DNA from: an archaeon
GTDB lineage: Archaea > Thermoproteota > Nitrososphaeria > Nitrososphaerales > Gagatemarchaeaceae
Length of the DNA: 64,000 nucleotides
Direction: 5' to 3'
NCBI GenBank assembly: GCA_021786575.1
Contig: JAJYMY010000001.1
Span: 124,001 to 188,000, forward strand
Positions within the stretch are counted from its first letter, which is position 1. Each line of letters starts with the position of its first letter. The translations under genes and the position numbers were made by a program. Of the stretch, positions 12,338 through 48,597 are shown piece by piece. The notes beneath the pieces were generated by a model, which was given only the letters and a program-made list of their open reading frames with translations, was not told where the DNA came from and did no database searches.

Positions 12338-12452
12338 AGCAGGCTTCTCTTTTGTATTTAGCTCGTGGCATGTGTCCTTGACCCATACGTGACATGTGCT
12401 CGATTACGGAGATATGCGGCAGCTAAGCGTGCTCTACCTGTCAGCGGCTAGC

Positions 12453-12635: not shown

Positions 12636-13547
12636 AGGAACGGCATCCGTGAAGGCAGACTTGATTTCGTCAAACTTCGGAGAAAGCTCCTCCATTTGCT
12701 TAAGCTGCCCAATCATTCGTTTGAAAGACGTTAGCTCTGAATAGAACACCCTCGCCAATCCGCCGGCGATTGCGATGGCCAATCCATAGAACACGTTGAA
12801 AGCAGAGGCGATTGCGGCGACAGTAGCAAGCAAGAAGTTCGACATGCGGCGTGAGGACCGACTTGCGGTGTACTCTGTAAGCGCTTTCTGCGATTCATAG
12901 GCTACATCAATTCTACTCTTAAGATACTGAGCAAGTTCTTTGTTGCTTGCTCTTAACTTCACAAGCCCACCTTCGACGTACTCTTTTGCCGCCGTAACGG
13001 AATGGGTCCTCCACAGCTCCTTTTCTTCGTCGAGGAATTGGCTGACCACATGAACGCGTTCCGTCAACATGTTGTAGGCTGCAACAAAGCTCTCGTCTAG
13101 CTTCCTGAGCGCGATGCCAAGCTGTTTCTCAGCTGGATCAAGTGTGTCCTCGTACGTGTCAGCTTGCAGACGAGACAGGCATTGGTTGAAGAACCTCGCG
13201 TGTGCCTGCAGTACCCTCTCGTCAGTCCATCCTCTGATGACGTTGTGCTTAATCGGGGCTCTAAGATACGTGATGAACCAAACCCGATATGCCTGGACAG
13301 CGCTTTGGAACTTGGATTTGTCTCTGACAATGTCATAGTTCTTGTCTAGCAGCATGAAGCCGGTGTGTTTCGTGTTAGGAGGCGGTAGAAAGGTAGATGC
13401 ATAGACGGCCAGGTAGTAGTCCGAGTCTTGAATCTGGCACGGCCAAACCTTGAGCTTCTCGTCGGGCTCTTGGTGGATTTGAGCCATTGATCGCGCTAAC
13501 GGGGGAGCGTGGAAAGGCTTCCATTCGTAGTTAACAGCCCTGGCCAA
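12606..13547 (-). CDS. Membrane-associated helical protein of unknown function
   Basis: 313 residues. An N-terminal soluble domain with VWPCQIQDSDYYLAVYAST, a long charged helical middle (possible coiled coil, about 150-225), then two close membrane segments near residues 232-265 (FLLATVAAIASAFNVFYGLAIAI) and an amphipathic tail. No family recognised. It lies between the broken RHH gene and IntC. The layout (sensor-like N-part, helical linker, two C-terminal helices) could suit a membrane-acting defence or entry-exclusion protein, but that is speculation. Confidence 0.55.
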   Translation of the reverse strand: MARAVNYEWKPFHAPPLARSMAQIHQEPDEKLKVWPCQIQDSDYYLAVYASTFLPPPNTKHTGFMLLDKNYDIVRDKSKFQSAVQAYRVWFITYLRAPIKHNVIRGWTDERVLQAHARFFNQCLSRLQADTYEDTLDPAEKQLGIALRKLDESFVAAYNMLTERVHVVSQFLDEEKELWRTHSVTAAKEYVEGGLVKLRASNKELAQYLKSRIDVAYESQKALTEYTASRSSRRMSNFLLATVAAIASAFNVFYGLAIAIAGGLARVFYSELTSFKRMIGQLKQMEELSPKFDEIKSAFTDAVPLAMMRDFEA

Positions 13548-13580
13548 TCAGAGTATTCGAGGGCCAAGTTTGGTTTAAGT

Positions 13581-14489
13581 TTATGCCACCAGTTGACAAG
13601 TCTCTCGATTACCATCGCTGTCCAAGACTGGAAACATGCAGACTGTCCGCGAGTAGAACCTATCCGCCTGCTTCACCTTGGTCAGGTAGTGCATACCCCC
13701 CACAGACTTGCCCAATGAGCGACCCTGTACGAAGTCGCATACGCTTTCTGGCACGTTGTTCTCTATCAGAAAGTTGTACTGCCACTTGCGCAGGTACTTC
13801 GCGGGCAGCCCATGCCTGCTGAAGTAGACCTTGACGGTGTTGAGCTTGAGCGAGCACTGCCGCAGCTCCTCTACGAAGCCGGTGGGCAGGTAGCAGTACA
13901 GCACGCGCTTGGTACCCCTGTCCATGCTTAGAGGGTACTTGGCTACGCTACCCTCGACCATGAGCCTGCCCCTGTCGTAGATGCGAAGGAACTCCACCGC
14001 CTCTATGGGACGTATGCCTGAGTAGAGCATGACCTTGAAGCAGAGCTTGTACTCTGGATGGGAGAACCGCTTGTATGCTTCGACAACCTCTGACGTGACT
14101 GGCACGTAGTCGTCGGTCCCCGTCTTGGGCACTTTGACGACCTTGCGGTACCTGTGCAGGTCCTCTTCGCTGATGACGCTGAACTCTTCAATGTAGTTGA
14201 GGAGGTTGCGGATCGCAAGCGCTAGGCTGCGCTTGCCTGGCTTGGCGTTGTCCAGCAGCTCCTTGAGCTTGAACTGGTCTTCGATGAAAGGCGGGAAGTA
14301 GCGTTTGGCGTTGTACACCATCGCGTAGGCGTGCCGCTTGCCGTGCTTGTTCCACAGCCACGTGTGGAAGCGTTCTGCGTACTCGCCGTAGGGCAGTGGG
14401 GTGATACCGTTGCTTGGGATGTCAAACCTTCCATTCGCCCTCCAAGCTGGTAACCCGGGTTCAAATCCCGGCGACCGCATCCGTTTCAC
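13581..14489 (-). CDS. Integrase C-terminal catalytic part (IntC), split by integration
   Basis: Tyrosine recombinase catalytic domain. Visible are the first Arg in YSGIRPIEAVEF, a KxxR box in KYLRKW (instead of HxxR, as in SSV integrases) and the nucleophile Tyr in GGMHYLTK. The apparent start ATG14479 to 14489 lies in or at the att repeat, which encodes RSPGFEPGLPAWRA in the same frame as IntN at 6870-7153; residues after the repeat begin NGRFDIPSN. The separated halves imply the integrase works only from the circular form. Confidence 0.88.
   Translation of the reverse strand: MKRMRSPGFEPGLPAWRANGRFDIPSNGITPLPYGEYAERFHTWLWNKHGKRHAYAMVYNAKRYFPPFIEDQFKLKELLDNAKPGKRSLALAIRNLLNYIEEFSVISEEDLHRYRKVVKVPKTGTDDYVPVTSEVVEAYKRFSHPEYKLCFKVMLYSGIRPIEAVEFLRIYDRGRLMVEGSVAKYPLSMDRGTKRVLYCYLPTGFVEELRQCSLKLNTVKVYFSRHGLPAKYLRKWQYNFLIENNVPESVCDFVQGRSLGKSVGGMHYLTKVKQADRFYSRTVCMFPVLDSDGNRETCQLVA
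14437..14479 (+). repeat. attR: 43-bp direct repeat, partial tRNA-Gly
   Basis: Perfect copy of 6870-6912. It lacks the acceptor 5' strand and D-arm, so it is not a functional tRNA; it marks the right end of element 1, after which chromosomal sequence resumes before moaC. Confidence 0.9.
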
Positions 14490-14612
14490 CTCTCTCTTGT
14501 CCCGTCTTGCACGTGGACGTGCGTCGACCTGCGAAAGCGGAAGCGACCTCGCTCAGTCGAGAGGCAGACAGGCAGAGAGAAGCTATAACGGGCGGCCGCA
14601 GGATAGAGCGAC

Positions 14613-15056
14613 GTGCCGTTCCATCAGGTCGACATATCGCAGAAACCCGTGGTCTATCGTGAGGCTGTCGCCACGGGTCGGATCAAGCTCAAGCGGACCA
14701 CGATCGAGCTGATAAGGAAGAAGAAGCTGGAGAAAGGGGACGCAGTCTCCCTCGCCGAGGTTGCTGCCATCTCCGGGTCCAAGAAGACCCCCGATTTGCT
14801 GGCGCTCTGCCATCCGCTAAGGATAGAGGAGGTCCAGCCGAGCGTGAAGCTCGGGGACGTCTGGGTGGAAGTCACCGTGAAAGTGGCAACTCATGAGAAG
14901 ACCGGCGTTGAGATGGAGGCGTTGACCGCCGTCTCTGCAGCCCTGCTCAACATATGGGACGTGACAAAGGCCTATGAGAAGGACCCCGAGGGCCAGTACC
15001 CCGGGACTGCCATCGAGTCAATCAGGGTCGTGAGGAAGGTAAAGAGGGCCGCGTGA
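14613..15056 (+). CDS. moaC: Cyclic pyranopterin monophosphate synthase MoaC
   Basis: Second step of molybdopterin synthesis, converting the MoaA product to cPMP. 147 residues with the family core DLLALCHPLRIEEVQPSV, the GVEMEALTAVSAALLNIWDV stretch and catalytic Lys region near VTKAYEKD. GTG14613 lies 30 nt after a TATA-like CTATAACG. First gene of the molybdenum region, directly right of element 1. Confidence 0.95.
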   Translation: MPFHQVDISQKPVVYREAVATGRIKLKRTTIELIRKKKLEKGDAVSLAEVAAISGSKKTPDLLALCHPLRIEEVQPSVKLGDVWVEVTVKVATHEKTGVEMEALTAVSAALLNIWDVTKAYEKDPEGQYPGTAIESIRVVRKVKRAA

Positions 15057-15115
15057 AAGAAGACAGAGACCCTGACGAACGCATCTTCTTCAGGACGTTC
15101 TGGCGACCCAACTGG

Positions 15116-35798: not shown

Positions 35799-36160
35799 GC
35801 TCCGTCACAATCAGTACTGCCGACTCTCGGATCGCGTGGCGGCGTTCTATCGCGCGCCCCCCTTGACACGAGAAAGACAGTCCTTCTGATGTCAAGAGGC
35901 TCTTCGAACTTACGTCCTCTTCGGCCAACAATCCCAAGGACGACCTATCGCGGCTCCTCGTAATCTCAAGGGAAAGTGAGCGTCGGACGACAACGGTCTG
36001 ATCCGAAAGCCGAACCGGACACGTTCGTCCCCGGTGATTTTGGCAGACAAAGTTGCGAATCAGTTAAGATACAATACGACTCCGTATGACTCGGTCCGAG
36101 TAAGATGCCATGAGGATAGCGCAAAGTATTAAGTCACTCCACCGGCGGCACTTGTGTTGT
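35799..36160. other. Intergenic region before tRNA-Phe
   Basis: About 360 nt with no recognised gene. AAAGTATTAA near 36123-36132 is a plausible TATA box for the tRNA. Confidence 0.4.
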
Positions 36161-36268
36161 GCCGCGGTAGCTCAGCCTGATTCCCGTTCGAAGGCCAGGG
36201 AGACCTCACAGCTCATCAGCATCCGGCTGAAGACCGGAGTGTCGTCGGCTCAAATCCGACCCGCGGCA
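36161..36268 (+). tRNA. tRNA-Phe(GAA) with D-loop intron, target of element 2
   Basis: Acceptor GCCGCGG (36161-36167) pairs with CCGCGGC (36261-36267), discriminator A36268. Anticodon stem TCCGG/CCGGA with loop CTGAAGA (36227-36233), anticodon GAA. T-arm GTCGG-CTCAAAT-CCGAC, with C at the usual T54 position. D-stem GCT/AGC with a long 45-nt loop (36173-36217), so an intron of about 35 nt lies in the D-loop, like in tRNA-Gly at 6799. CCA is not encoded. Confidence 0.85.
36253..36268 (+). repeat. attL of element 2: 16-bp tRNA-Phe 3' end
   Basis: AATCCGACCCGCGGCA at the tRNA 3' end, repeated exactly at 48582-48597. Confidence 0.85.
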
Positions 36269-36321
36269 TCTTACCTCCAGATTATATGCCTCTAGCTGTT
36301 TGAACTCAATCCGGCGTTGGA

Positions 36322-37479
36322 ATGATGCAAGAAGCGAACCAGACGTACCAGGAAAGGAATCAACAGCTGGTCGGCGAGTTCCTGAGCTCCCTTCCTTCCT
36401 TGTCCAAGCGTAGAGTTGACAAGTACAAGTACCGAATGGGCAAGATTTCCAGGAACCTCGGTAAGTCGTTCGACAGCGTGACGAGGGAGGAGCTTCGAAG
36501 GTATGTCGAAGAGATCAATAGATCCCCCGACTTCAAGGACTGGACGAAACAGGATTATCGGATATTCCTGAAGAAGTTCTTCAGATGGCTCCACGATAGC
36601 GAGTTTGTAGCCTGGATTAGGATCGGGAGGGTGAAGGTAAGCGTCAGTGTGGAGGACATACTTTCAGGCGCTGAGCTGGAGATGATCAGGCGGGCCTGCA
36701 ACAACTTGAGAGACAAGGCCCTTATTGAAACGGCCTACGAGGGAGCGTTCAGGCCTCATGAATTGCTTGGACTAAAGAGGAGTAGTGTCGCGTTTGACGA
36801 TTATGGGGCTAAGGTCTCGATCGAGAAAGGAAAGACCGGTCCCCGCAGCATCAGGGTGGTAAATGCCGCGTCATTGCTCGCTGAATGGATTGAACATCAC
36901 CCACTGAAAGCGAAAGATGCGCCGCTGTGGGTAGACATGAGCAAAGACACCACATACCAGCCTCTCAAGTGGCTTGGGGTCAGTAAACTCGTGGGAAGGC
37001 TGGCCAGGAAGGCAGGAGTGGAGAAGCGCGTGAAGCCTTACCTCTTCCGGCATACCCGCCTGACCGAACTGAGCAATACCCTCACCGAGGCTCAGCTGTG
37101 CATGTTTGCCGGCTGGGAACAAGGTAGCGACATGCCGCGCAATTACGTTCATCTGTCTGGGAGGGACGTCGACGATGCCCTGCTCAGATTCTACGGACTG
37201 GTCAAGCCAAAGGTGAAGAGGGAGTTGAAGACGCCAAGGAAGTGTGTGAGGTGCGGGACTCTTTGTGGGTCTGACGCGGAGAGTTGCCACAAATGCGGGA
37301 TGGCGCTGACGCTCCAAGCGGCGCTAAAGAAAGACGAAGAACTTGCGGAGATAAAACAGAAGCAGGACCGAATCCTGGAGCTTCTATTGAAAGGCGCCAG
37401 GGTGGACCCAGCATTGCTCGACGTACATAGTGAGGACCTCGTTCGACCAAGGCCCGCAATTAATGAGACGCCTGGCTGA
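36322..37479 (+). CDS. Tyrosine integrase with C-terminal zinc ribbon, intact
   Basis: 385 residues. N-terminal core-binding domain (about 20-105), catalytic domain with Arg in AFRPHELLGL, HxxR in FRHTRLTEL and Tyr in RNYVHLSG, then a zinc ribbon (CVRCGTLCGSDAESCHKC, about 310-328) and a helical tail. It lies 54 nt after the tRNA-Phe end and reads away from it, so integration does not split it. This puts the element in the group with whole integrases, unlike element 1. Confidence 0.92.
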   Translation: MMQEANQTYQERNQQLVGEFLSSLPSLSKRRVDKYKYRMGKISRNLGKSFDSVTREELRRYVEEINRSPDFKDWTKQDYRIFLKKFFRWLHDSEFVAWIRIGRVKVSVSVEDILSGAELEMIRRACNNLRDKALIETAYEGAFRPHELLGLKRSSVAFDDYGAKVSIEKGKTGPRSIRVVNAASLLAEWIEHHPLKAKDAPLWVDMSKDTTYQPLKWLGVSKLVGRLARKAGVEKRVKPYLFRHTRLTELSNTLTEAQLCMFAGWEQGSDMPRNYVHLSGRDVDDALLRFYGLVKPKVKRELKTPRKCVRCGTLCGSDAESCHKCGMALTLQAALKKDEELAEIKQKQDRILELLLKGARVDPALLDVHSEDLVRPRPAINETPG

Positions 37480-37649
37480 AATAACTTCGGCCAGCCAATT
37501 CACTCCTTTTCGGAAATGTATCCTGTTGTGGGTACGAATCCCCAGGAGAGGATTACGGCCTATGAGTTAAATCCCAACGACGGTCAATCCGAGGAGTTTC
37601 GTATGTATTGTATTGTATGTACGTATTAGGAAAGTAAGAGGTAAGAGAG

Positions 37650-38006
37650 GTGTCAGAGGGCAGGCCAAAAGAATACAAGAGCCGCACCATCTTCACGGTT
37701 TCTGCGGAAGCGCAGGTTCTCATGGCCTTCAAAGAGATTGCGAAGAAGGAAGGTAAGCCATACGGAAGAATCCTTCAGGAACTGATGGTGGAATATGTCA
37801 AGAAGCATTTCAATGGGAACCCGGCCTTTGCGCTGGATCAATGGGTCAAAGCGCCTGACTTCATGTCTTTCCCCACCCTGGGAGAGAACCCTGACATGAA
37901 GTACCTGAGAGAGATTGACGACAAGAGTCTCCGAGTCGTCAGGGGCCAGGCAGAGGCTTGGGCTAGGAAAGCGAAGGAGGAAGAGAGGAGACGAGATCGT
38001 TTGTAG
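37650..38006 (+). CDS. Small RHH-like DNA-binding protein
   Basis: 118 residues from GTG37650. RTIFTVSAEAQVLMAFKEIA, then KPYGRILQELMVEYVKKHF, is a strand-helix-helix layout, and the tail ARKAKEEERRRDRL is very basic. A TATG-TATTG-rich region precedes it (37600-37630). Likely an element regulator. Confidence 0.6.
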   Translation: MSEGRPKEYKSRTIFTVSAEAQVLMAFKEIAKKEGKPYGRILQELMVEYVKKHFNGNPAFALDQWVKAPDFMSFPTLGENPDMKYLREIDDKSLRVVRGQAEAWARKAKEEERRRDRL

Positions 38007-38244
38007 CCTTAGGTTTATCCAGAAAGACGACGAGTGCTGATTCGGCTGCTGCAGTTTTGTCCGCCAAAGATACCCTTAAAGAATCGATTCCCACCCGATA
38101 CGTTAGGCTGGAAACGTTTTCCCGCGTGACCAGCAATGAGGCGGGTGGGACTACGACTCCGCATGCTGTGTCAGAGGCCACAGCAAGTTTGTCGCTGGTA
38201 TAAGCAGAATCAACGTTGCAGGACTTGTCCCAGGGCGACGGAAC

Positions 38245-39783
38245 TTAGTTTGTTCTCCATATCTGGTTATAACGATTGAACATGATCTGTTCTCCGCACA
38301 AACAGGAACAGCGAGGATCCTTCTGTCTGAACATTAGCTGACCCGCTAGAGGCGAGAAGAGGCTCATCGTAAAGTAGTTTGAAAGGCGATAGTCTTTCAG
38401 CTCTCTTACACGGTCTTTGATCAACTCACCTGCAAGGAGTATTCCGGGCATTGCCGAGACAAAAGAGACAGTTGCAGCAGCTGACGCGGTACCAATTTGA
38501 ATTCTGAGCATTCCACAAATTTCCTTGGCATAGACCTCTTTGAATGGTAGACCCACAAAGCTTGACAGCCTCTTTGCATCGCCTCCTCTCTCCCTTGCGA
38601 TTGTCTGTGCATGCCCCTCCGTGAATGTCCCATTAGTCGAAAGCACTCGATCTACCTCTTCTATAGGAATCCCCGTTTCCTCAGATACCTGTTCTCCGTA
38701 GCCAAGCTCTTGTTTGAAGAATAAGCATCCCAAGCAGGCACCGTTGACGAAGTCGTGCTTCGAAACAACAAACATCTGCTCGTGGGTAGCGCCGTGCAAA
38801 ACTAAGCGAGGAAGATCGGATTGAATCTGTTCCCTAGCGTGATTATTATCAACGGTCGAGACAACCAAGTCAAACTTCGAAGAATTCGTTGTTTTCTTGT
38901 AGTCTTCGTATCTCGCAGAAATTGGACGAGTTAGAATCTTAGAAATTAAGAAATCCGAAGCGACGTCAACTTTCTGCTTTCCGATATCAGCATGACAAGC
39001 GATTAGGTACCTGTTTAGGTTTGATTCGTCAATTCTGTCATAATCGATGACAGTCAAATCGCCTTGCATTTCTTTTATGTATCCGAGTGTGAATATGAAA
39101 CTACAGCCTACGGCCCCTGCTCCCACCAGAAGAGCATCCCCCATCTCGATTGTACTAGGCAATTCTGGATTGACAGGATTTCTGGAATTGACCGAGTAGT
39201 CCAAAGCAGAGAACAAGACGTGTTGTGTTCTCGTTCCGACAGTTCTATTGGTACTCCCTGATTTTCTAAGGATTTGTTTGAAGACCTCAGCACTGGCCAA
39301 GGCCGATGCAGCAAATGCACCAATCGGGTTACTGTCTTCAGTTATGTAATCCAAGACAGGCTCCTGGGTTAATTCAGCCAGCCATCCTTTGGAATTTATT
39401 GTAACTCCAAAGTCGGAGCTCAACTGCGAAGAACCTATGGCAACTAAGGCATCCAAGTTGTCGGATCCAAGAACCCTAGGAGACACTATCAAGGCAGGGT
39501 CTATGCTCTTAGCAAATTCTAGAAGGCTTGTTGCGAAGTCGTTTGACGCAGAATGAGGGACATCTATTCTCCTCGTGACTGGGACGACGTCAAGGAATAT
39601 GCGACGTGCATACCGCGACACGTTATTCAGAACTGCCAGTCCCATCAACTGACCATTGCGGGAATTGGCTAACTTTTTGTCAAGAGAGATGGCGACGCCG
39701 AAGTCATCAAACTTGAAGATGCCCTTTGATCCCTCGGGCAAGAAGGTGCGCATGAAACGTTGAGTTCTATCGCTGATGCTCAT
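38245..39783 (-). CDS. E1-like ubiquitin-activating enzyme (ThiF family, two-part)
   Basis: Would adenylate the C-terminus of the ubiquitin-like protein. 512 residues. The active ThiF-type half starts near residue 215: GAGAVGCSFI (nucleotide loop, 221-230), VIDYD (Asp247), SNLNR (Arg258), GKQK (Lys269/271) and Asp312 in STVDNN. Zn-type cysteines are C350-C353 and the C492/C494/C496 cluster. The catalytic Cys is not certain; C423 is a candidate. Residues 150-172 (PIGAFAASALASAEVFKQIL) resemble the final helix of a ThiF domain, so the first ~200 residues may be a degenerate second half, like the inactive half of eukaryotic E1s. Overlaps the JAB gene by 17 nt. Confidence 0.82.
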   Translation of the reverse strand: MSISDRTQRFMRTFLPEGSKGIFKFDDFGVAISLDKKLANSRNGQLMGLAVLNNVSRYARRIFLDVVPVTRRIDVPHSASNDFATSLLEFAKSIDPALIVSPRVLGSDNLDALVAIGSSQLSSDFGVTINSKGWLAELTQEPVLDYITEDSNPIGAFAASALASAEVFKQILRKSGSTNRTVGTRTQHVLFSALDYSVNSRNPVNPELPSTIEMGDALLVGAGAVGCSFIFTLGYIKEMQGDLTVIDYDRIDESNLNRYLIACHADIGKQKVDVASDFLISKILTRPISARYEDYKKTTNSSKFDLVVSTVDNNHAREQIQSDLPRLVLHGATHEQMFVVSKHDFVNGACLGCLFFKQELGYGEQVSEETGIPIEEVDRVLSTNGTFTEGHAQTIARERGGDAKRLSSFVGLPFKEVYAKEICGMLRIQIGTASAAATVSFVSAMPGILLAGELIKDRVRELKDYRLSNYFTMSLFSPLAGQLMFRQKDPRCSCLCGEQIMFNRYNQIWRTN

Positions 39784-40309
39784 CTTTAGCAGCTCCGACC
39801 ACTCTGAAGCGTTGTCTTAACTCAAATGGGTCAAGCTCGCGCCAGCGACCGCCTCCTAGAGACTCATTGACACTGCAGTCAGTCAAAGTCGTATCGTCAT
39901 AGAATTTGCTCTTCGCAAAATAGGGGATTACAATTGATATGAATCCTGACTTGTGACTAATTGGATAGGTGTCGTCGACGCTTGAATGGAACGCTTCGAA
40001 TCCATGCGTGTGCAATTGCGCGAACAGGAACTCTCCTCGTGAGTAGACCTCGTTGCCTATCTCATACACGACTCTCAGATCAAGACCAGCATGCACACTG
40101 CGAAAACCAGACCTCTTGTAGGCCTTCGGGAAGATACAACTCCTGATTAGTGCATCTTTTCCCTTGACTACGACCCCTCCCCAGCACATGTATCCTTCAT
40201 AGCGTTTCTTTCCATATCGTTTCAAGTATGTGAAACTCTCGTCCAGGACCCTCATCGAAATGAAGTATGTGCGTATTCGGTCCGGCCGGAGTGAGTTCTG
40301 TTTGCTCAA
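39767..40309 (-). CDS. JAMM/JAB metalloprotease (deconjugase)
   Basis: Zinc isopeptidase of the Rpn11/BilC type. 180 residues with an intact JAMM motif: Glu38 in RYEGY, then His100-Thr-His102, seven residues, Ser110 and Asp113 (HTH-x7-SxxD). It could trim the short tail of the ubiquitin-like protein or remove it from targets. Sits between E1 (17-nt overlap) and E2 (6-nt gap). Confidence 0.85.
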   Translation of the reverse strand: MSKQNSLRPDRIRTYFISMRVLDESFTYLKRYGKKRYEGYMCWGGVVVKGKDALIRSCIFPKAYKRSGFRSVHAGLDLRVVYEIGNEVYSRGEFLFAQLHTHGFEAFHSSVDDTYPISHKSGFISIVIPYFAKSKFYDDTTLTDCSVNESLGGGRWRELDPFELRQRFRVVGAAKDEHQR

Positions 40310-40315
40310 GCTGAA

Positions 40316-40735
40316 TCACTTGTTCATCATAGTGACGAGCTCGGTCACAATCTTAGACAAGCTCACGTCACGAGTGGTGAATGGCGTCCCCTGGTGGTGT
40401 GAGTGGTATTCTCTAATGCCAGGAACGCAAATGAACGGAGGATTCTGAGACCGCTTAAAAGCCCGTTCACCATCGTTGGGCCAAAACTCGTTTCCCTCCG
40501 CAGAATGATTTGCTGGATTCACGAACACCACGCTAGGTGGGTTCAACGGATAACCACCGTCGCAGCGAAGGCGAATTGTGTATTTCTTCTCGTCCTTCTT
40601 GCTAGTTAAGGTCACAAAGACGTCCCAACCGTCTACACGCAGATCTTCTATCAGTAGGAATCCAGTGCATTGTTGTAGCAACTCAACTTGCGCTTGGAGA
40701 AAGGTCCTTGAAGCAACCTCATCCATCCATATCAC
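40316..40735 (-). CDS. E2-like ubiquitin-conjugating enzyme
   Basis: 139 residues. UBC-fold signs: CDGGYPLNPPSVVFV (residues 58-72, the YPxxPP strand turn) and Cys103 in FICVPGIREYHSH, followed by His111 and His113, the arrangement of prokaryotic E2 proteins in Bil-type operons. No eukaryotic HPN motif, as expected for the group. The short N-terminal helix and final helix (LSKIVTELVTMM) frame the fold. Confidence 0.82.
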   Translation of the reverse strand: MIWMDEVASRTFLQAQVELLQQCTGFLLIEDLRVDGWDVFVTLTSKKDEKKYTIRLRCDGGYPLNPPSVVFVNPANHSAEGNEFWPNDGERAFKRSQNPPFICVPGIREYHSHHQGTPFTTRDVSLSKIVTELVTMMNK

Positions 40736-40783
40736 CTAGGAACCATCGAGTCACAAACAATTCCCGGTTAGCCGAGTGGAGTC

Positions 40784-41557
40784 CTATCGGCTCTCTCCCT
40801 TCAGTTCCTTCCTCTGTACCCAATGTAAGCCCTCGTTCGGTCTGATCACGCAAATGTCAATTGGTCCACCAGTACCAGGGACGTCTCCAGGCGATAGCAC
40901 TATTCCATCTGAAAACCGTTGCATATCGATTGTTGTTCGTATCAGAAATATTGCGAAATCTACGGCGTCCTGAAGTGTCAAGACATTGAATCTGACGACA
41001 GAATTCAATAGGTCAAGCTCCTTCACAAATTCAGGCTTGAACCAAGAAAGGGTTCCTATGCGAGGGTCGAATCCTTTGATGAGACGCGTAACAACATCAG
41101 TCTGGCCTTTCCAAGTTGCACCGAAATCATCTGGAGAACCGATTTCCACAACTGATGGGCCAGGTACCGCGCATTCGAACACACCCCGCGTTCCCTCCGT
41201 GTCGTAACCAGCTACTATGAAACCAACATTATCAGGTTTCTCCTCGGGATTAGATTTCGCCTGTTCCTGCCATTTTTCATCAACAGATTTGCCCAGTCCC
41301 TGCGCGATGTCCTTCACTGACACGCCTTCAAGACTCCCAATTGTCGCCTTGTATTGCTCAACTAGACTTAGGATGCTTCTGCCTGATAGTGCCGCCTGAC
41401 CGTACGTTACTCCTCCTACTTTGGGGGAGAGATCAAAGACCTTCTGGGCGTTGTCGGTGGCCACTCTGAAGTTGCCCCTTTCGTTCGGATAGACCTGTCT
41501 GCTTTCTGATGCAAGCACAACCCCTTCTGGTACCCGAATGCAAGCAGCGATGGTCAC
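40784..41557 (-). CDS. Proteasome-like Ntn hydrolase
   Basis: Threonine peptidase candidate. From GTG41557 the protein begins M-T-I-A-A-C; the Thr lies exactly where proteasome beta has Thr1, with a Glu (SER motif, ASESRQ) at the Asp17 place and Lys at NAQKVFDL in the Lys33 place. The beta-sandwich pattern GVVLASESRQ, GGVTYGQAALSGRSILSLVE follows. An ATG at 41578 adds 7 residues and overlaps the Ubl gene by 19 nt; with GTG, the Thr would be exposed by methionine removal, as in HslV. About 258 residues. No AAA unfoldase gene is nearby. Confidence 0.82.
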   Translation of the reverse strand: MTIAACIRVPEGVVLASESRQVYPNERGNFRVATDNAQKVFDLSPKVGGVTYGQAALSGRSILSLVEQYKATIGSLEGVSVKDIAQGLGKSVDEKWQEQAKSNPEEKPDNVGFIVAGYDTEGTRGVFECAVPGPSVVEIGSPDDFGATWKGQTDVVTRLIKGFDPRIGTLSWFKPEFVKELDLLNSVVRFNVLTLQDAVDFAIFLIRTTIDMQRFSDGIVLSPGDVPGTGGPIDICVIRPNEGLHWVQRKELKGESR

Positions 41558-41559
41558 CG

Positions 41560-41844
41560 CTACTCGACCAATGCCCATCCAACCTGGGCTTCGGTCCCCA
41601 GGAGGAGTGTGGAACCGTCTTTGACTCCTTCTTGTTCCAGGGTCTTGTTGTCGTCGAGTACACGACCTTCGTACAACAAATGGTAGGTGACGCCGGGGGC
41701 GGGCTGTATTCCGAAGTGCGCTAGCGCTCTTTGTACGACGCTTTTTACAGTCTCGTGAGTGTTGAATTTGTCAGTCCACGTTTCTCCCTCGACTGTCCGT
41801 ATCGTTAGTGTAATCAATGGACCTGCTTCTGCGGGCTGGGACAT
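41560..41844 (-). CDS. Ubiquitin-like protein with a short C-terminal tail
   Basis: 94 residues, beta-grasp. Residues 59-89 align without gaps with ubiquitin residues 46-76: EGRVLDDNKTLEQEGVKDG then STLLLGTEAQVG against AGKQLEDGRTL... ending RLRGG. Gly89 falls on Gly76 with Val at 75, and WALVE follows, so a five-residue tail would need removing, probably by the JAB protein. No Gly-Gly. Two nucleotides (41558-41559) separate it from the preferred Ntn start, and it starts 1 nt after the wHTH gene. Confidence 0.85.
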   Translation of the reverse strand: MSQPAEAGPLITLTIRTVEGETWTDKFNTHETVKSVVQRALAHFGIQPAPGVTYHLLYEGRVLDDNKTLEQEGVKDGSTLLLGTEAQVGWALVE

Positions 41845-41845
41845 G

Positions 41846-42091
41846 TCAGTCCTCCGTCCTCTCTAGTATCTGCTTGTATGCAGAATTGAGTTCGCACACC
41901 TGGTAGGTCCTGCCTGATACCTCAATCTTCGTGCAAGATACAATCCCCAGGTCCGTGGCGACGTTCAAGATCTTCTCGACAGTCCGCCTGTCCGATCCTA
42001 TCTCTTCTGCGATTTTTGAGGGTGATGCTTTGGATTCCTTCCTCAGGAGTTCAACGACCTTGGGCAGCTTCTCAACCGACACGATTTCCAC
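41846..42091 (-). CDS. Winged-helix regulator of the ubiquitin-like operon
   Basis: 81 residues: helices at VVELLRKESKASPSKIAEEI and RRTVEKILNVATDLGIVS, then a wing (KIEVSGRTYQVCEL). First gene of the operon; the palindrome just before its start suggests self-repression. Confidence 0.75.
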   Translation of the reverse strand: MEIVSVEKLPKVVELLRKESKASPSKIAEEIGSDRRTVEKILNVATDLGIVSCTKIEVSGRTYQVCELNSAYKQILERTED

Positions 42092-42096
42092 CTATC

Positions 42097-42130
42097 ATGT
42101 GTCGTTTCGACACATATTGCGTATAAAAAC
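42097..42130 (-). promoter_or_regulatory. Operator and TATA box of the ubiquitin-like operon
   Basis: Perfect inverted repeat ATGTGTCG-TTT-CGACACAT at 42097-42115, starting 6 nt before the wHTH start and directly after the minus-strand TATA box GTTTTTATAC (42121-42130). A protein bound here would stop transcription. A related palindrome lies before the membrane protein. Confidence 0.65.
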
Positions 42131-42173
42131 CTTCTCATTTCGCTTCAAAGCTCAGATTTCTCTGTCCCTCCCA

Positions 42174-43562
42174 CTAGAGTCTTCTTAGATCTCCAAGATT
42201 CACGGTTGCTTCCTCCAACCGCGAATAGGGGCCGTAAGATAGCCATACCATCGCTGCGATAATGACGATTGCTAAAGCGTCACCTAGGAGACCGATACTA
42301 ATGGCGATACCTGTTGATGGGGCTGAGATGTGAAGGACCTCGAAAGTGATGCCTATTGCAGTAACTACTGCGCCAATCACGGTAGCTGCCAGTGTCGCGT
42401 TCTCTGACCACCGTTTAGCCGCAATCACCCGAAATTCATTCGGCCATTGTGTCACTGATAGAAATCCACGAATCCTGCTCGTTAGACGACTTAGGTTCCG
42501 TACAGATTCTAGAGGTAAGCCAAGGTTTGCGAACTCCGCGGCGATTCCTGTGAGCCTATCATAGGGAACAGGGGTTCCGAACGAACCGATGAATGATAAT
42601 GCTGCATCCAATTCATCGAGGCCGTCGAGTTGGACTCGGCGCACGGAAAGTGTCTCAGCTAGTATGTGAACAGCGGATTGAAGGTAGTTCTTTCCCCTCA
42701 ATTCGGCCCTCATGAAGGATGATCTCGCTACGTCGGCCATAGCTGCAACTCCCACTATGCTTGTCCCTGCTATCTTGCCAGGGAATGGGGTGAATCGACC
42801 ATAGCCTTGCCCCATGAGCCTGCAAATTGAGTTGCGAACGACCAGCGAAAAGAAGTAGAGAAATGACAAGAGAGCAGCCAGCTGTAACGGGTCCCCGTAC
42901 GAGGCGGGTTGGTGGAAGTAAGCGATTGAGGCGAATATGATGGTAAAGAGAATCTCTATCGACTCGAACAAAACCAAATAGTAGAAAGTCATATTGATTC
43001 CTAGCCAAACCTTGTGCCTGTTTCGGTTTAGCCTGAATGAAGCGAACCGAACGTCCGGTTGTGCTGGCCAAATCGCGTCAGCGAACAGAAAGAAGAATGC
43101 CCCTAATTCGGCCATGGATAGTACCGAGGAAACCGAAGAGGAGTTGTTTGAGACAACCGCATAGGCAAGCGCGCCGTAGATCACTGGCGGAGCAAACAGC
43201 GAAGTCGCCAGGACGACGAATGCGCCGACCCTCGCTGATCTTGGGGTATGCTGAGAAACGTAACCGGTTGCCTTTTCTAGGGGACGTGGAGGAGGTAGTC
43301 CCTGAATTTCTCTTAGTCTGCGCCATAACCGCGCCACGAGAACTAGCTCGACAAATACGAGAATTATCACAAGGAGAAGGAGACCCAGGATTCCATTGAA
43401 TGTGAAATCCGAGATTCCATGGCCTAAGAATCTGTTTCCGTTGATATCCGTGAATTGAACAGGGAATGAAGAAGACGCTAGCCCGAAGATGGTTATCACC
43501 AGGAAGAAGAGAACAACTGCATTTACGACCGCGATAACCGCTGCGAATCGAGTTGGTCTCAA
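42174..43562 (-). CDS. Eight-helix membrane protein upstream of the ubiquitin-like operon
   Basis: 462 residues from TTG43562. Membrane helices at about 8-30, 55-80, 112-135, 146-165, 185-215, 228-250, then a soluble domain of about 130 residues and two more helices near 395-415 and 425-445. No family recognised. It shares strand and a similar palindrome with the operon, so it may be its membrane effector, target or sensor. No enzyme motif seen. Confidence 0.65.
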   Translation of the reverse strand: MRPTRFAAVIAVVNAVVLFFLVITIFGLASSSFPVQFTDINGNRFLGHGISDFTFNGILGLLLLVIILVFVELVLVARLWRRLREIQGLPPPRPLEKATGYVSQHTPRSARVGAFVVLATSLFAPPVIYGALAYAVVSNNSSSVSSVLSMAELGAFFFLFADAIWPAQPDVRFASFRLNRNRHKVWLGINMTFYYLVLFESIEILFTIIFASIAYFHQPASYGDPLQLAALLSFLYFFSLVVRNSICRLMGQGYGRFTPFPGKIAGTSIVGVAAMADVARSSFMRAELRGKNYLQSAVHILAETLSVRRVQLDGLDELDAALSFIGSFGTPVPYDRLTGIAAEFANLGLPLESVRNLSRLTSRIRGFLSVTQWPNEFRVIAAKRWSENATLAATVIGAVVTAIGITFEVLHISAPSTGIAISIGLLGDALAIVIIAAMVWLSYGPYSRLEEATVNLGDLRRL

Positions 43563-43592
43563 ACCCCGTTTCTCAGAGCGGGACGTGTTAAG

Positions 43593-43636
43593 AATTTATT
43601 CGGCTCATTTCATCATTTAGTGTCTTCGAAGACACT
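43593..43636 (-). promoter_or_regulatory. Promoter and GTGTC palindrome of the membrane-protein gene
   Basis: A TATA-like AATAAATT (43593-43600 on the minus strand) lies about 35 nt from the TTG start, and the perfect 18-bp palindrome AGTGTCTTCGAAGACACT (43619-43636) lies just upstream. It shares the GTGTC/GACAC arms with the operon site at 42097-42115, so one regulator may act on both. Confidence 0.6.
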
Positions 43637-43940
43637 TTCACGTCTCTCGACCCTTGTCCCGCTATCCCCCCGACTTGTAGTCTTGGAACCCGCCGCCCCT
43701 CTTGGTTCGCCTCGAAGAAATTTGAGAAGTGCCCCTTTTCAAATTCTGACCGTGGGGAGGAACAAGCCCGGAGGTCCTAGTATTCCATGATGGATTACGT
43801 GGAGGCGGAGGGGGTGTATGGTTGTTTGTTTGGTTGTTTGTTCCCTGCAAGACCCGGCCGTGGATTAGGTCCCGGAGGGAACGATTGTTGATTCTCTGTG
43901 GGAGGCTGGGCCGTTAAGTAGTTCCGTAGTATGTAAGAGA
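43637..43940. other. Intergenic region with a GGTTGTTTGTT repeat
   Basis: About 300 nt between divergent genes. GGTTGTTTGTT occurs twice in a row, at 43820-43830 and 43832-43842. A TATA-like GTTAAGTA (near 43911) serves the small gene that follows. No coding sequence recognised before it. Confidence 0.4.
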
Positions 43941-44120
43941 GTGTTCCTCCCGCAAAGACTACCTCAGATTCGCCTAGAAGGCAAGCTGTATTTCTTCGAC
44001 GCTAACTTACATCAGCTGCGGAACACTGCAAATCCTCATGATTTCATCGATTTGTCCGTGGAGGAAGCCGGTGTAATTCAATTCATGGTTCATGCACGTC
44101 AGAATGTATGCGAGTTTTGA
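43941..44120 (+). CDS. 59-residue protein of unknown function
   Basis: From GTG43941, about 28 nt after a TATA-like GTTAAGTA. It reads ...IRLEGKLYFFDANLHQLRNT then NPHDFIDLSVEEA, resembling small archaeal proteins with a beta hairpin and an NPHDFID motif. It is too short for usual gene calls, and its 3' end overlaps the DUF2075 gene tail by 38 nt. Function unknown. Confidence 0.55.
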   Translation: MFLPQRLPQIRLEGKLYFFDANLHQLRNTANPHDFIDLSVEEAGVIQFMVHARQNVCEF

Positions 44121-45975
44121 CGATGGATCGGAAGTAACTCTCAGTTTCTTTGTTGATGAAATAGATGTAGCATCCTATCATGCCTCTGGTCATGAGAACC
44201 CTGTAGGCGTTCTTCACATACCTGACGAAGTTCTCCTTATCTCTCTTCACAGCTGCGTCGGCAGAGTTGTCCGGCATCCCTATCCATGTCTTCTTGGTTG
44301 GATCCCATGCCAAGTCATCTCCGAATATGACTCCAACGTAGTCGAACTCGAAGCCCTGAATGGTGTAGATGCTCCCCATCTGGCTTACACCGTTCGGATC
44401 GTAGGCCCACAGTGCAGCCCGGGGGATGCCGTGTGCCACCTTCGCCGCCTCGTTCTTCGCCTCCCATGTCATCTTGAAATCGCCGATCACGACGTCCTCT
44501 TTCAGGGTCCCGTCGGGGTTCGGATCGCTCCACGGCCAACAGAATCCAGCAACCATTCTTGCTGAGTTCTGCCTATGGGCATTTTTCGCCTTGATAGCGT
44601 CGTAGAGAGCCTGGGGACTATCGAATATCCTGAAGTCCATCTTCTCATTCTCCGTCAACATGAGATTGGCGGTCTCTCTGATTCCAAGTGCGTTGTCGAG
44701 CCAGTTGAGATATCCGTCAGAGCCGCTACATCTGAACTGGGTCTTTAGCTCGAATTCGAAGATCTCCGCCCCGAATCTGACCGCCGCCTTTCTGATGAGG
44801 TCTGAACTACCCTGTTCGTAGGGTCTTACCACCTGATAGTCATCGATGAAGAATACTGAAACTTTGGCTGCCTTGATCAGCTCGTCGACCTGAGGCTGGT
44901 TCGTCCTCTGAGCTTTAGGTGTGTACCTGCTCACGCTAGTCGCTCGGATTCTGTGTGCCTCGTCGCAAACAAGAACATCTAACGCGTTCTGCTCTGCTGT
45001 CGTGAAGCTATTGAAATATTTGAACATCGCAGCGGCCCTGGTCCCGACTATTTTACGCAGCGTGCTTGTGAACGCGGCCGAGCCTGTAGCGTGGAAGACA
45101 GTCTGCCCCCTCGAGAGTAACTCTGCGATTACATTGAGCGCGATGACAGACTTACCCGTGCCGGGGCCTCCTCTGACTAATATGACGGATTTTGACTTGG
45201 ATTTCGAGGTCTTCTTTGCGCGGTCGAGTATGGCGTAGTAGGCGGCCAGCTGATCCTCCAGCAGATTGAAGACCTTCTGTCCCTTGATCATTGAAGAGGT
45301 GTGTTCCAATAGTTTCTTGGTTGGGCCAACCGGGGATGCGGAGAACCTGTTGAAGACCTCTAGCCCCCTTCCCGCAGACAACCTTGCTTTGAGGTAGGCG
45401 GCAAGTTGCGGTACGTCCTCTTTGGCAAACAGAGGGAAGTCCTTCATTACCGATTGGAACCTCGACCCGAAAAGGACGTCGGCGGTCCGGGAGTAGTTAT
45501 GGCAGTAGCTTACTGCTGAGAGATTGACGGTGTTGTTTCCGAAGATCTCGACAAAGTCCTTCAGGTATGAATAGTAACCCTGAGCTTGATATGAGGGGTG
45601 AGCTTCGAACCTGTTCGCACCCCCAGTGAATGTCAGGACCTCGTTCTCGACGTCGCAGTCCTCGACCTTGGACCACTGCTTCAGTTCCATAATTACGGCG
45701 TTGGGACGCTCATCTGGCCCTTTGCCGAACAACAGGCAGTCAATTCGCTTGTTTGAGTAAGGTAGCTCATATTCCACAACGACCATGTTGTCCCTGAGCG
45801 ACGCATATTCGATTATGTTCTTGACGAATTGAAGAGAATTGGTCCATGAAACGACTTCTTGCTGGCCTGCTAAGCGGTAGTAGTAAGTTTCGTAGGCATC
45901 CCTGAGCTTGTCCGCGAGCCTGTTTTCTAGAATGTCTTGAATAAACTCCTCAGAGGAGCCTGTATAGAGCTTCAA
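44083..45975 (-). CDS. DUF2075 helicase with N-terminal PD-(D/E)XK nuclease
   Basis: 630 residues. N-terminal restriction-like fold with KRIDCLLF then NAVIMELKQW (D...ExK pattern), then an SF1/DUF2075 ATPase with Walker A RGGPGTGKSV, the CDEAHR box, and the final RVLMTRGMIGCYIY motif. Such proteins are in defence islands and on elements; with the overlapping MazG-like gene (4 nt) they form a pair. Likely a defence protein against foreign DNA or RNA. Confidence 0.85.
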   Translation of the reverse strand: MKLYTGSSEEFIQDILENRLADKLRDAYETYYYRLAGQQEVVSWTNSLQFVKNIIEYASLRDNMVVVEYELPYSNKRIDCLLFGKGPDERPNAVIMELKQWSKVEDCDVENEVLTFTGGANRFEAHPSYQAQGYYSYLKDFVEIFGNNTVNLSAVSYCHNYSRTADVLFGSRFQSVMKDFPLFAKEDVPQLAAYLKARLSAGRGLEVFNRFSASPVGPTKKLLEHTSSMIKGQKVFNLLEDQLAAYYAILDRAKKTSKSKSKSVILVRGGPGTGKSVIALNVIAELLSRGQTVFHATGSAAFTSTLRKIVGTRAAAMFKYFNSFTTAEQNALDVLVCDEAHRIRATSVSRYTPKAQRTNQPQVDELIKAAKVSVFFIDDYQVVRPYEQGSSDLIRKAAVRFGAEIFEFELKTQFRCSGSDGYLNWLDNALGIRETANLMLTENEKMDFRIFDSPQALYDAIKAKNAHRQNSARMVAGFCWPWSDPNPDGTLKEDVVIGDFKMTWEAKNEAAKVAHGIPRAALWAYDPNGVSQMGSIYTIQGFEFDYVGVIFGDDLAWDPTKKTWIGMPDNSADAAVKRDKENFVRYVKNAYRVLMTRGMIGCYIYFINKETESYFRSIVKTRIHSDVHEP

Positions 45976-46352
45976 GGCGCGAACTCTGTATACTTCTTGT
46001 TGGAGCCCTTCGCTTTCTCTATCGGATACTTTCGCGCACTTTCTCTGATCTTCTCTTCTAGTGATGACGAAATGTCAATGTCGTAGCGCTGTGCAAGCCT
46101 AACCGTGAAGTAAACGATATCTGCTAACTCATCCCGGATGCTCTTTGATTGCAAATTATCCTTGAACATACGGTCTACTTCTCCGTCCGATTTGAAACGG
46201 AACATCTCGAGGAGTTCAGATGCCTCGGTCACTATGCCAATGGCCAAGTCCTTGGCATTGTGAAACTGATCCCAGTCTCGTTCCACGCTAAACTGTCGCG
46301 CCATCTCTTTCAGTTCGGCTATTCGAGTTTGGGTGTCGTCCAGGTGCCTCAT
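45972..46352 (-). CDS. MazG-like nucleotide pyrophosphohydrolase
   Basis: 126 residues. Metal-binding EASELLE (ExxE) and DELADIVYF (ExxD-like) motifs in a four-helix fold, as in MazG/dCTPase proteins that split NTPs. Overlaps the DUF2075 gene start by 4 nt, so the two are coupled, a pairing seen in some defence gene clusters. Substrate unknown. Confidence 0.8.
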   Translation of the reverse strand: MRHLDDTQTRIAELKEMARQFSVERDWDQFHNAKDLAIGIVTEASELLEMFRFKSDGEVDRMFKDNLQSKSIRDELADIVYFTVRLAQRYDIDISSSLEEKIRESARKYPIEKAKGSNKKYTEFAP

Positions 46353-46391
46353 CTCCTTGATGACCTGATTCTTTCAACAGGAATCTTTTCA

Positions 46392-47093
46392 TCACTCAAT
46401 GCGATCACTCTTCTCGAGATTGTGCCTTAGACAAAGCAGCTGGATATTGCTTGCATCGTACGAAGTCCCTCCTTTGGAATAAGGAATTATGTGATCAAAG
46501 TGAAGATTGTCTTTGGCGCCACATTTGGCACACTTTCCCCCATCTCTCTTCCAAACCTCTAGCTTTACTCCGGATGGAATGATCCTAGTCTGATCCAAAT
46601 CCCTAGGATAGGCCGATAGTGCAGTTTGATCTTCCACTAACTTCAGTTTGAATTTGAAGACCTTCCTGCCGTTTGATTCCTCTAACCAGGCATCTAGGAG
46701 AGAGAACCGACCGTTATACACCCAAATGCTTGGCTTGATTTTCTCATAGACCTTAACAACCTCTGCCTCACGCATTCCATTCTTGTAGTCCACTGCAGCA
46801 TTGAGGAACATCCCGTTCTGGGTAAGCCTCCCATCTGGATTCCTATCCACCTGGTCGACACCCCTGCGATCCTCTCCCCCGGGCGGTCTTGGGACATCGT
46901 GCCCCTCATAAATCAAAACCCTGCCCTCGTCTTCGACTTTGTCAACGTATGGAGCGTCCTTCCTACGGCTCATCAATATGACAGTGGACTTCTTCCTCAA
47001 TCGATAATTCATTCCTCGCCTGAGACTTGTAGATTCCTGAGCACACATGTCGAAGTAAGAAATGATATCTCCAGCTCTGGGTGCTTGCGCCAC
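46392..47093 (-). CDS. SRA/YDG-HNH endonuclease, likely specific for modified DNA
   Basis: 233 residues. The N-terminal ~150 residues have the YDG/SRA pattern, with SVWVYNG-type segment IKPSIWVYNGRFSLLDAW, a fold that flips and reads methylated cytosine. The C-terminus is an HNH nuclease with CAKCGAKDNLHFDHIIPYSK, then NIQLLCLRHN. This pairing is typical of type IV-like restriction enzymes that cut modified DNA. Confidence 0.85.
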   Translation of the reverse strand: MAQAPRAGDIISYFDMCAQESTSLRRGMNYRLRKKSTVILMSRRKDAPYVDKVEDEGRVLIYEGHDVPRPPGGEDRRGVDQVDRNPDGRLTQNGMFLNAAVDYKNGMREAEVVKVYEKIKPSIWVYNGRFSLLDAWLEESNGRKVFKFKLKLVEDQTALSAYPRDLDQTRIIPSGVKLEVWKRDGGKCAKCGAKDNLHFDHIIPYSKGGTSYDASNIQLLCLRHNLEKSDRIE

Positions 47094-47195
47094 GCCAGCC
47101 TGCCGACCCTTTCTTCCTATGAGTGTTATGTTTTAGGTCTTAACGTTCTTGACTTGGGGGAGACAAGGTTGTTTCGGGATTGTCCTCTTATGAAG

Positions 47196-47684
47196 TCATC
47201 CCAGGCCTCTGGCGATCTGTTTCAGTTCCGTAACCTCAAGTTCAGTGGCAATTTCGCTCACTTTGTCCCATTTGATGTACTTGCCGCGGTTCGCCATTAG
47301 TTGTCGCAAGTCTGCCACGTCCTGCGATCTGCCAGCTCTGTGTTTCGCTAGGACTAGGCCTTCAAGAGACATTACGCGTATCTCCTTCCTACCTATTTTG
47401 ACAGGGACAGAGGTCCTCACAATCCAATCGACGGGTATCCTTCCAACATCTTTCGTATAGAAATCAGCTTGGATACCGCGAGGCGTGTACCAAGAGCTGC
47501 GTGATTCTCCCCGCTTTCTGTAACCCAGTTCCTTTAACCGTTCTTCATCTAACTGACCGGCAACAACGATATCGATGTCCCTAGTTCCTCGGAACTTCGT
47601 ATAATGGTTTACCGCAAGTGCCCCAATGAAGACCGCGTTTCCTAGCTCTTCAGTAATGTTAACTGCTTCCTGCTCAAGGTTCAT
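47196..47684 (-). CDS. AbiEii-like nucleotidyltransferase toxin
   Basis: 162 residues. FIGALAVNHYTKFRGTRDID holds the family GxxA...TxDID core. Partner of the AbiEi-like gene, which it overlaps by 11 nt. AbiE pairs are a toxin-antitoxin system with a nucleotidyltransferase toxin. Assigned from the gene pair and fold. Confidence 0.75.
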   Translation of the reverse strand: MNLEQEAVNITEELGNAVFIGALAVNHYTKFRGTRDIDIVVAGQLDEERLKELGYRKRGESRSSWYTPRGIQADFYTKDVGRIPVDWIVRTSVPVKIGRKEIRVMSLEGLVLAKHRAGRSQDVADLRQLMANRGKYIKWDKVSEIATELEVTELKQIARGLG

Positions 47685-48321
47685 TGGAGGCTAGCTCTTC
47701 TTTCACCTTCAACACATCTTCTGATTTGAAGACTCCCTTGACTCTTGGATCCAGATGCTCACCGTGAAGCATCTCGATTGCGATAGCATCTAATGTGCTC
47801 CTTCCTCCATATGCGAGGCAATCCAAATACACGCGTTGGATCTCATTCTGAGGCGAGCCAACCTGTGGCAAAAGGACTACTCGCCCTCGTGTTCCTTCCC
47901 AGAATCCATGCTCTCGTAGTATCTCTGCCGCTGAGTCCAAGTTGTTTACGTAAACGAAAAGTGAATGTGGTTCTTGCAGTCTGGTCAGATCATACGCTCG
48001 GTAATCCAAAGTTACAATTCCGTGAAGTATTTCAGATGCTTTTTTGACATCGTTCTCGTTATATGAACGGCCAAAATATCGCGCGTGTTTTAGTGCGTTC
48101 AATGATGGGACCAAATGTTGCCAGATGTTGAAGGGCTGGAAGAGACTTGATCTTATCGTGAAATACCCTTCTTTTGCTGGTTCGGCGAATCCGATCTGGC
48201 GCAGCTCTGCCAGGGTTCTGTATGCAGTAGCACGAGATCCGGTAACTTGCAGTAATTCCTCTAGGCGATATATTGGCTTTTCTCCTATTGCTTGTATTAC
48301 TGCGAGTTCCGCTTTTATCAT
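47674..48321 (-). CDS. AbiEi-like winged-helix antitoxin
   Basis: 215 residues. N-terminal winged helix (LEELLQVTGSRATAYRTLAE, then LRQIGFAE), then a longer C-terminal domain as in AbiEi. It binds inverted repeats and represses its own operon in the known system; such a repeat is present upstream. Confidence 0.75.
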   Translation of the reverse strand: MIKAELAVIQAIGEKPIYRLEELLQVTGSRATAYRTLAELRQIGFAEPAKEGYFTIRSSLFQPFNIWQHLVPSLNALKHARYFGRSYNENDVKKASEILHGIVTLDYRAYDLTRLQEPHSLFVYVNNLDSAAEILREHGFWEGTRGRVVLLPQVGSPQNEIQRVYLDCLAYGGRSTLDAIAIEMLHGEHLDPRVKGVFKSEDVLKVKEELASNEP

Positions 48322-48344
48322 TGCGTTCTATTGCTGTATTTGGA

Positions 48345-48374
48345 AGTATATATGTTTGTCTCATTGTTGAGACA
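48345..48374 (-). promoter_or_regulatory. Promoter and operator of the AbiE-like pair
   Basis: TATA-like TATATA (48346-48354, minus strand) lies about 27 nt from the AbiEi ATG, and the perfect inverted repeat TGTCTCA-TTGT-TGAGACA (48357-48374) sits just upstream. Confidence 0.6.
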
Positions 48375-48581
48375 TAGATATATAATAAACAACAATCAAG
48401 CAATCAACCAGATCTCAACCAGATCGATAACATTGGTAGGACTCTTAGCAGGCCATGATTCATCTCGGACTCTTCGAGGATCCCGTCCAGTGCCCTATGA
48501 CCGGAAAGTTCAAATGGAATCTTCCCATATCTTATGTTAAACCTGTACTGGATGACATACGGAATTTTACGCGCAGGTGTT

Positions 48582-48597
48582 AATCCGACCCGCGGCA
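48582..48597 (+). repeat. attR of element 2: 16-bp tRNA-Phe 3' end
   Basis: AATCCGACCCGCGGCA, the exact copy of 36253-36268. The rest of the tRNA is missing here, so it is the right end of the element. Confidence 0.8.

Follow-up and report, generated by a model that had tools for sequence, protein, structure and literature searches.

The window analysed here (64,000 nucleotides of contig JAJYMY010000001.1, positions 124,001 to 188,000, from an archaeon of the Gagatemarchaeaceae) carries a minus-strand operon in which a gene for a proteasome-family N-terminal nucleophile (Ntn) hydrolase lies within a set of genes for ubiquitin-like conjugation and deconjugation of the Bil type. Bil is an antiphage system whose proposed action is to spoil virions by tagging them, and to our knowledge no degrading partner is known for any Bil system. 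On balance we favour the interpretation that a BilABCD-type operon, borne as cargo on a 12.3-kb defence element, has gained an Ntn hydrolase that would cut the conjugates. What is new here is the Ntn gene within the Bil operon, a pairing that is absent from the 20 related operons examined.

The run extends from position 42091 to 38245 and encodes, in order, a winged helix-turn-helix (wHTH) protein, a ubiquitin-like protein (Ubl), the Ntn hydrolase, an E2, a JAMM isopeptidase and an E1 (Table 1). A preliminary description of this DNA had listed these six genes in this order and on this strand, with no gap above 48 nt, and the arrangement was borne out with all six open reading frames (ORFs) intact: the wHTH and Ubl genes are separated by 1 nt, the Ntn and E2 genes by 48 nt (the largest gap) and the E2 and JAMM genes by 6 nt, while the JAMM and E1 genes overlap by 17 nt. 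The Ubl and Ntn genes overlap by 19 nt if translation of the latter begins at ATG 41578, or are 2 nt apart if it begins at GTG 41557; the second start is the one used in the preliminary description, and with it Met immediately precedes Thr1. The residues named there were also found (GAGAVG, R258 and D312 in the E1; the YPxxPP strand and C103 in the E2; T1, E17 and K33 in the Ntn hydrolase), with one correction: the JAMM motif, given as HTH-x7-SxxD, has the family-conserved register HTH-x6-SxxD.

By homology, the four conjugation genes are a BilABCD set, and we regard the identity of this core as secure; the conjugation set itself is of an already known kind, the parts of which have been summarised (PMC11354881). 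Structures in the PDB were searched with profiles made from each window protein and its two nearest relatives. The E1 profile matched BilD over its full length (profile positions 30–512), and the E1 retains G221, G223 and G226 of the GAGAVG motif (221–226), D247, R258, K271 and the CxxC pair C350/C353; C423, within an ICG motif, is the likely thioester cysteine. The active site of the JAMM protein is complete (E38, H100, H102, S109 and D112), and its match to BilC was obtained with the family alignment. In the E2, the conserved strand reads YPLNPP and C103 sits in a CEHH motif with E109, H111 and one more His; Metal_CEHH was above the Pfam cut-off and the BilB match was to chain 8tyz_C. The Ubl contains a single beta-grasp domain rather than two, with both DUF2604 and ubiquitin above the Pfam cut-off, and its profile, which already contained a rhizobial BilA, matches BilA in the PDB. 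PADLOC matched BilD and BilC on the operon, and BilB and BilA weakly. A CBASS (cyclic oligonucleotide-based antiphage signalling system) or E1-E2 fusion system was considered and rejected, as the PADLOC scores for these were far below that for BilD.

The nearest relative of the operon, at the locus that we call L041, shares 35% identity in the E1, 39% in the JAMM protein, 36% in the E2 and 45% in the Ubl, with all catalytic positions kept. The window Ubl ends in GTEAQVG followed by a 5-residue tail, WALVE, and that of L041 ends in GTEQQVG; because of this tail beyond QVG the window Ubl would need trimming, like several other Bil Ubls. The BilABCD gene order A-B-C-D is kept in the window, with the Ntn gene inserted between A and B.

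The inserted gene encodes a 264-amino-acid product that belongs, on profile comparison, to the proteasome family as a divergent relative of proteasome beta subunits, as the preliminary description had proposed for the product of 40784–41557. Its Pfam Proteasome match scored 25.5 bits against a curated cut-off of 22.4, and in hhalign it aligned with nine archaeal beta subunits over residues 12–247 (E 6e-7, score 49.8); 200 shuffles scored no higher than 21.6 and the remaining five operon proteins no higher than 16. Thr1, Glu17, Lys33 and Gly47 are kept in a sequence alignment with archaeal beta subunits, to which the identity is ~19–31%, and Glu at position 17 is the residue of many archaeal beta subunits. 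By comparison with canonical beta subunits there is extra sequence after H2, between H3 and H4 (~27 residues) and before the last strands (~13 residues). The reading frame is intact, with Thr1 directly after the GTG start codon; a protein made from this start would begin Met-Thr, and loss of the Met would leave Thr1 at the N terminus with no propeptide. Proteasome-like families are reported to lack propeptides, beta and HslV excepted (PMC8665760). A decayed gene was rejected, given the intact frame and the retained active site. The product does not resemble part of a 20S core: no alpha gene lies beside it and it scored 22.8 bits, against 118–188 bits for the other proteasome-family genes, all canonical, in 46 genomes of the host's taxonomic family.

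The comparison covered 20 Bil-type operons, drawn from Nitrososphaeria, haloarchaeal plasmids, rhizobia, Deinococcus, Chloroflexi, Novosphingobium, Ramlibacter and one viral contig. The preliminary description had suggested that known systems of this kind lack a linked proteasome-like peptidase, and within this survey of 20 operons its claim is supported; in the two closest operons the Ubl and E2 genes are adjacent, ~90 and 6 nt apart. The interval between them in L041 (5711–5803) contains an inverted repeat and then nine T, a terminator-like arrangement which would favour the Ubl over the enzymes. Relatives of the Ntn hydrolase beyond canonical proteasome subunits were found neither in plasmids, phages and viral contigs nor in about 600 related archaeal genomes, and exact 8-residue peptide patterns found none on the contigs of 84,980 genomes; such short exact patterns would miss distant relatives, so that rarity is established only within these limits. 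A single-sequence search of solved structures with the Ntn product gave no match, a beta-subunit scan of viral sequences found none, and a search of 398 genomes of the phylum returned almost only canonical beta subunits, with weak E-values. One weak match in 400 genomes of the class, to a patatin-like protein, was dismissed as due to chance. The all-genome survey of Bil operons was shallow, as the E1-alignment scan over all genomes gave seven loci. In the open-access literature that was searched, which includes no bioRxiv preprints and only a minority of subscription papers, we found no description of a Bil operon containing a proteasome-like gene.

The activity of the Ntn hydrolase, its action on tagged proteins and its partnership with the Ubl are inferred from one locus, and several points weigh against its having the role that we favour. 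The Ntn gene is known from this locus only; a proteasome-family ORF was present in 0 of the 20 fetched operons, from which it follows that conjugation does not need the hydrolase. The E1 tree groups the window with L041 weakly, and the gain of the Ntn gene is therefore argued from its absence in all other operons and not from the tree. The usual Ser129 position is not conserved in the Ntn alignment, and a single-sequence structure model was too poor to use (mean predicted local distance difference test score 32), so that the fold rests on sequence profiles. Following the reasoning of Fuchs et al. (2021; PMC8665760), the H3/H4 insertion may hinder stacking into a proteasome-like double ring. 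The preliminary description had seen no ATPase unfoldase next to the operon, and we agree that no such gene lies beside the Ntn gene; a CDC48 search of the host genome (755 kb in two contigs, 49% complete) gave no match above cut-off, which at this completeness settles nothing.

The Ntn gene might be separate cargo in the Ubl–E2 junction, sharing the transcript while serving another pathway, with a defence, toxin-like or counter-defence role of its own. Its single occurrence, the 20 related operons that manage without it, the character of the element as a collection of unrelated defence genes and the fact that no Ntn homologue was found elsewhere that would tie it to Ubls are all in keeping with a passenger. 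We nevertheless think this unlikely, as the gene fits the operon exactly, on the same strand, with coupled translation and with no promoter of its own seen; and proteasome and ubiquitin-like partners are functionally matched in a way that would hardly arise by chance. This close translational coupling and functional match favour a role for the hydrolase in the pathway.

Such a role could be other than degradation: the Ntn product might be a specific endopeptidase or, like monomeric connectase, a ligase, maturing the tailed Ubl or joining or moving it on target proteins. The gene lies directly behind that of the Ubl, the product of which extends 5 residues past the terminal Gly of its nearest relative, the H3/H4 insertion speaks against a double-ring barrel (PMC8665760), connectase demonstrates that the proteasome family is capable of ligation, and the lack of an adjoining unfoldase fits a protein that does not degrade. 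The trimming of tailed Ubls, however, is a reported function of Bil JAMM proteins, and an Ntn enzyme is absent from relatives whose Ubls have tails (L005, L006, L020 and L045); we therefore consider a non-degrading function improbable, and return to the cutting of conjugates as the preferred reading.

The preliminary description had also called the operon mobile, and this was made exact by perfect 16-bp attachment (att) repeats that bound an integrative element (36253–48597) with an integrase at one end. The left repeat coincides with the 3' end of a tRNA-Phe gene that immediately precedes the integrase gene; none of the 16-mers of this tRNA gene recurred when the 13.7 kb downstream was shuffled 200 times. 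Unedited, this gene gave no ARAGORN call and an Rfam tRNA score of 24.6 bits at 36210–36260, under the cut-off of 29; once an internal intron was removed, ARAGORN identified it as tRNA-Phe (gaa), and 51 nt of its 3' half are identical in same-genus genomes. The intron is non-canonical, lies in the D region and differs in length among same-genus genomes (L082 by comparison with the window). Another genome of the genus (G586) has both flanks on one contig, with homology to the window up to 36274 and again from 48638, and with 2.7 kb of other genes between the flanks. Between 36.3 and 48.5 kb the guanine-plus-cytosine (GC) content of the window drops from about 0.59 to 0.44–0.55. An assembly chimera was rejected on the basis of a 299-kb contig, even GC across the element and the exact att repeats. 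The proposal that a conjugation and deconjugation set shares one transcription unit with a proteasome-family hydrolase on a mobile element is supported.

Further cargo of the element is listed in Table 1; the AbiE-like pair has the look of a toxin–antitoxin arrangement of the AbiE type. At L042, the genome of which belongs to the host's order, as does that of L041, a short prokaryotic Argonaute (12084–15058; PADLOC pAgo_I, 1e-144) with a SLFN_AlbA_2 partner lies ~2 kb from the Bil-type operon. The defence-type cargo and this Argonaute are evidence by association that the operon serves in defence, and action against a virus, as first suggested in the preliminary description, is probable. Ubls serve quality-control or regulatory roles in other archaea and this host has canonical proteasome subunits, so the operon could instead act together with the host proteasome or Cdc48 in regulation or in quality control of the host's own proteins. 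We hold this to be very improbable: the operon is sporadic, with a Bil-type E1 in 11 of 400 genomes of the class (the window's own included) and in no other genome of the genus, and it lies on a mobile element among defence genes. Elsewhere in the window a second integrase (13581–14489), of the archaeal Phage_integr_3 type (8e-42), lies ~7 kb from a tRNA-Gly gene (6841–6913) and possibly marks another integrated element.

Upstream of the operon, a perfect palindrome separates a TATA-like box (TTTTTATAC) from the start of the wHTH gene. It is a likely operator, which the wHTH protein probably binds to repress the operon.

The mechanism we propose starts from what can be read in the DNA itself, namely the four Bil parts, the family and main active-site residues of the Ntn hydrolase, the operon order and the element ends. 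The wHTH protein would keep the operon repressed through the palindrome until infection. The JAMM protein would then remove the WALVE tail, leaving a Ubl that ends in QVG; the E1 would adenylate this Ubl and carry it as a thioester, likely on C423; and the E2, through C103 of its CEHH motif, would transfer it to target lysines, probably of virus structural proteins as in bacterial Bil, with the JAMM protein also stripping stray conjugates. Finally, the Ntn hydrolase, with a free Thr1, would cut conjugates or Ubl-bound proteins, either unaided or together with an unfoldase of the host. Homology with Bil is the basis for assigning the trimming, activation, conjugation and deconjugation steps; regulation, the thioester cysteines and the antiviral role are inferred. 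Action of the Ntn hydrolase on conjugates is the least certain part, for which we see the chances as about even, and a self-contained tag-and-destroy immunity, in which the Bil cascade tags virus proteins and the operon-encoded proteasome-family peptidase destroys them, seems to us doubtful.

Bacterial BilABCD (ISG15-like; solved parts 8tyx–8tz0) has the same order of Ubl, CEHH E2, JAMM and E1 and the same catalytic residues, with the E1 and JAMM proteins homologous over their full length; the window differs in the Ntn gene between Ubl and E2, the wHTH gene in front, the archaeal host and the integrative element. The nearest relatives are Bil-type operons of Nitrososphaeria and haloarchaea (L041, L042, L005, L006 and others), none of which has an Ntn gene. 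With the proteasome-like homologues of Fuchs et al. (2021; WPH, PHI, PMI and others; PMC8665760), the Ntn product shares the proteasome family, Thr1, Glu/Asp17, Lys33 and Gly47, the lack of a long propeptide and, compared by description, an H3/H4 insertion like that of PMI-2 to PMI-6. No telling genomic context or AAA+ partner was reported for those homologues (PMC8665760), whereas the window hydrolase has a Ubl conjugation operon as its context. The catalytic domain is also homologous to those of the 20S beta subunit, HslV, BPH, Anbu and connectase, from which the window protein differs in its insertions and in the absence of neighbouring genes for an alpha subunit, HslU or PAN. Type II CBASS Cap2/Cap3 and other E1-E2 fusions likewise use E1, E2 and JAB in defence, but CBASS has an E1-E2 fusion and a nucleotide cyclase, and the PADLOC models for E1-E2 give weak matches in the window, confined to the E1 core. 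The Pup–proteasome system of Actinobacteria and the Caldiarchaeum ubiquitin system are comparable in the notion of tagging proteins for a proteasome-type enzyme; Pup uses PafA, with no E1 or E2, and the Caldiarchaeum operon encodes an E1, an E2 and a RING protein and is not known to encode a dedicated hydrolase.

Table 1. Features of the integrative element and of the Bil-type operon that it carries (positions in the window).
Feature	Position	Strand	Evidence
Intron-containing tRNA-Phe(GAA), integration site	36160..36268	+	ARAGORN call after intron removal
Left attachment repeat AATCCGACCCGCGGCA, last 16 bases of tRNA-Phe	36253..36268	.	Exact 16-bp match
Tyrosine integrase with C-terminal zinc ribbon	36322..37479	+	Pfam Phage_integrase 4.3e-15
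118-aa small protein	37650..38006	+	ORF, no family match
E1, BilD type, 512 aa	38245..39783	-	Pfam ThiF 9.6e-18; PADLOC BilD 1.4e-25; PDB 8tyz BilD 3.8e-56
JAMM isopeptidase, BilC type	39767..40309	-	PADLOC BilC 3.7e-9; PDB 8tyx BilC 3.1e-25
E2, BilB type, CEHH motif, C103	40316..40735	-	Pfam Metal_CEHH 4.2e-7; PDB 8tyz BilB 1.4e-7
Proteasome-family Ntn hydrolase, H3/H4 insertion	40784..41578 (alternative GTG start 41557)	-	Pfam Proteasome 1.1e-5; hhalign probability 92%
Ubiquitin-like protein, BilA type, single beta-grasp	41560..41844	-	Pfam ubiquitin 6.4e-9, DUF2604 2.5e-6
Winged-helix regulator (wHTH)	41846..42091	-	Pfam HTH_24 0.002; PADLOC Csa3 wHTH 2.6e-4
Perfect palindrome ATGTGTCG-AAA-CGACACAT, 8-bp arms	42097..42115	.	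0.02 expected by chance in window
462-aa membrane-type protein upstream of operon	42174..43562	-	ORF, no family match
Schlafen group 3 helicase, defence type	44083..45975	-	Pfam SLFN-g3_helicase 1.8e-92; PADLOC Nhi/AbiO-like
MazG-like protein	45972..46352	-	Pfam 5.3e-16
SRA-HNH protein, modification-dependent nuclease/restriction type	46392..47093	-	HNH 4.3e-9; SAD_SRA 2.6e-6
AbiE-like pair: nucleotidyltransferase (47196-47684) and overlapping wHTH-like partner (47674-48321)	47196..48321	-	DUF6036 1.4e-6; AbiEii 0.0083; HVO_A0261_N 0.0078
Right attachment repeat AATCCGACCCGCGGCA	48582..48597	.	Exact 16-bp match

The pairing of an archaeal Bil system with an Ntn hydrolase suggests, without proving, that some prokaryotes couple tagging to cutting. 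With a proteasome-family gene inside a Bil operon, the coupling of ubiquitin-like tagging to proteasome-type proteolysis outside eukaryotic and Pup systems becomes directly testable; a proteasome-like protein of a kind without known context gains a genomic one; and an archaeal integrative element is seen to carry Bil as cargo. If the tag-and-destroy reading is true, E1-E2-Ubl tagging and proteasome-type proteolysis would be linked on one mobile element.

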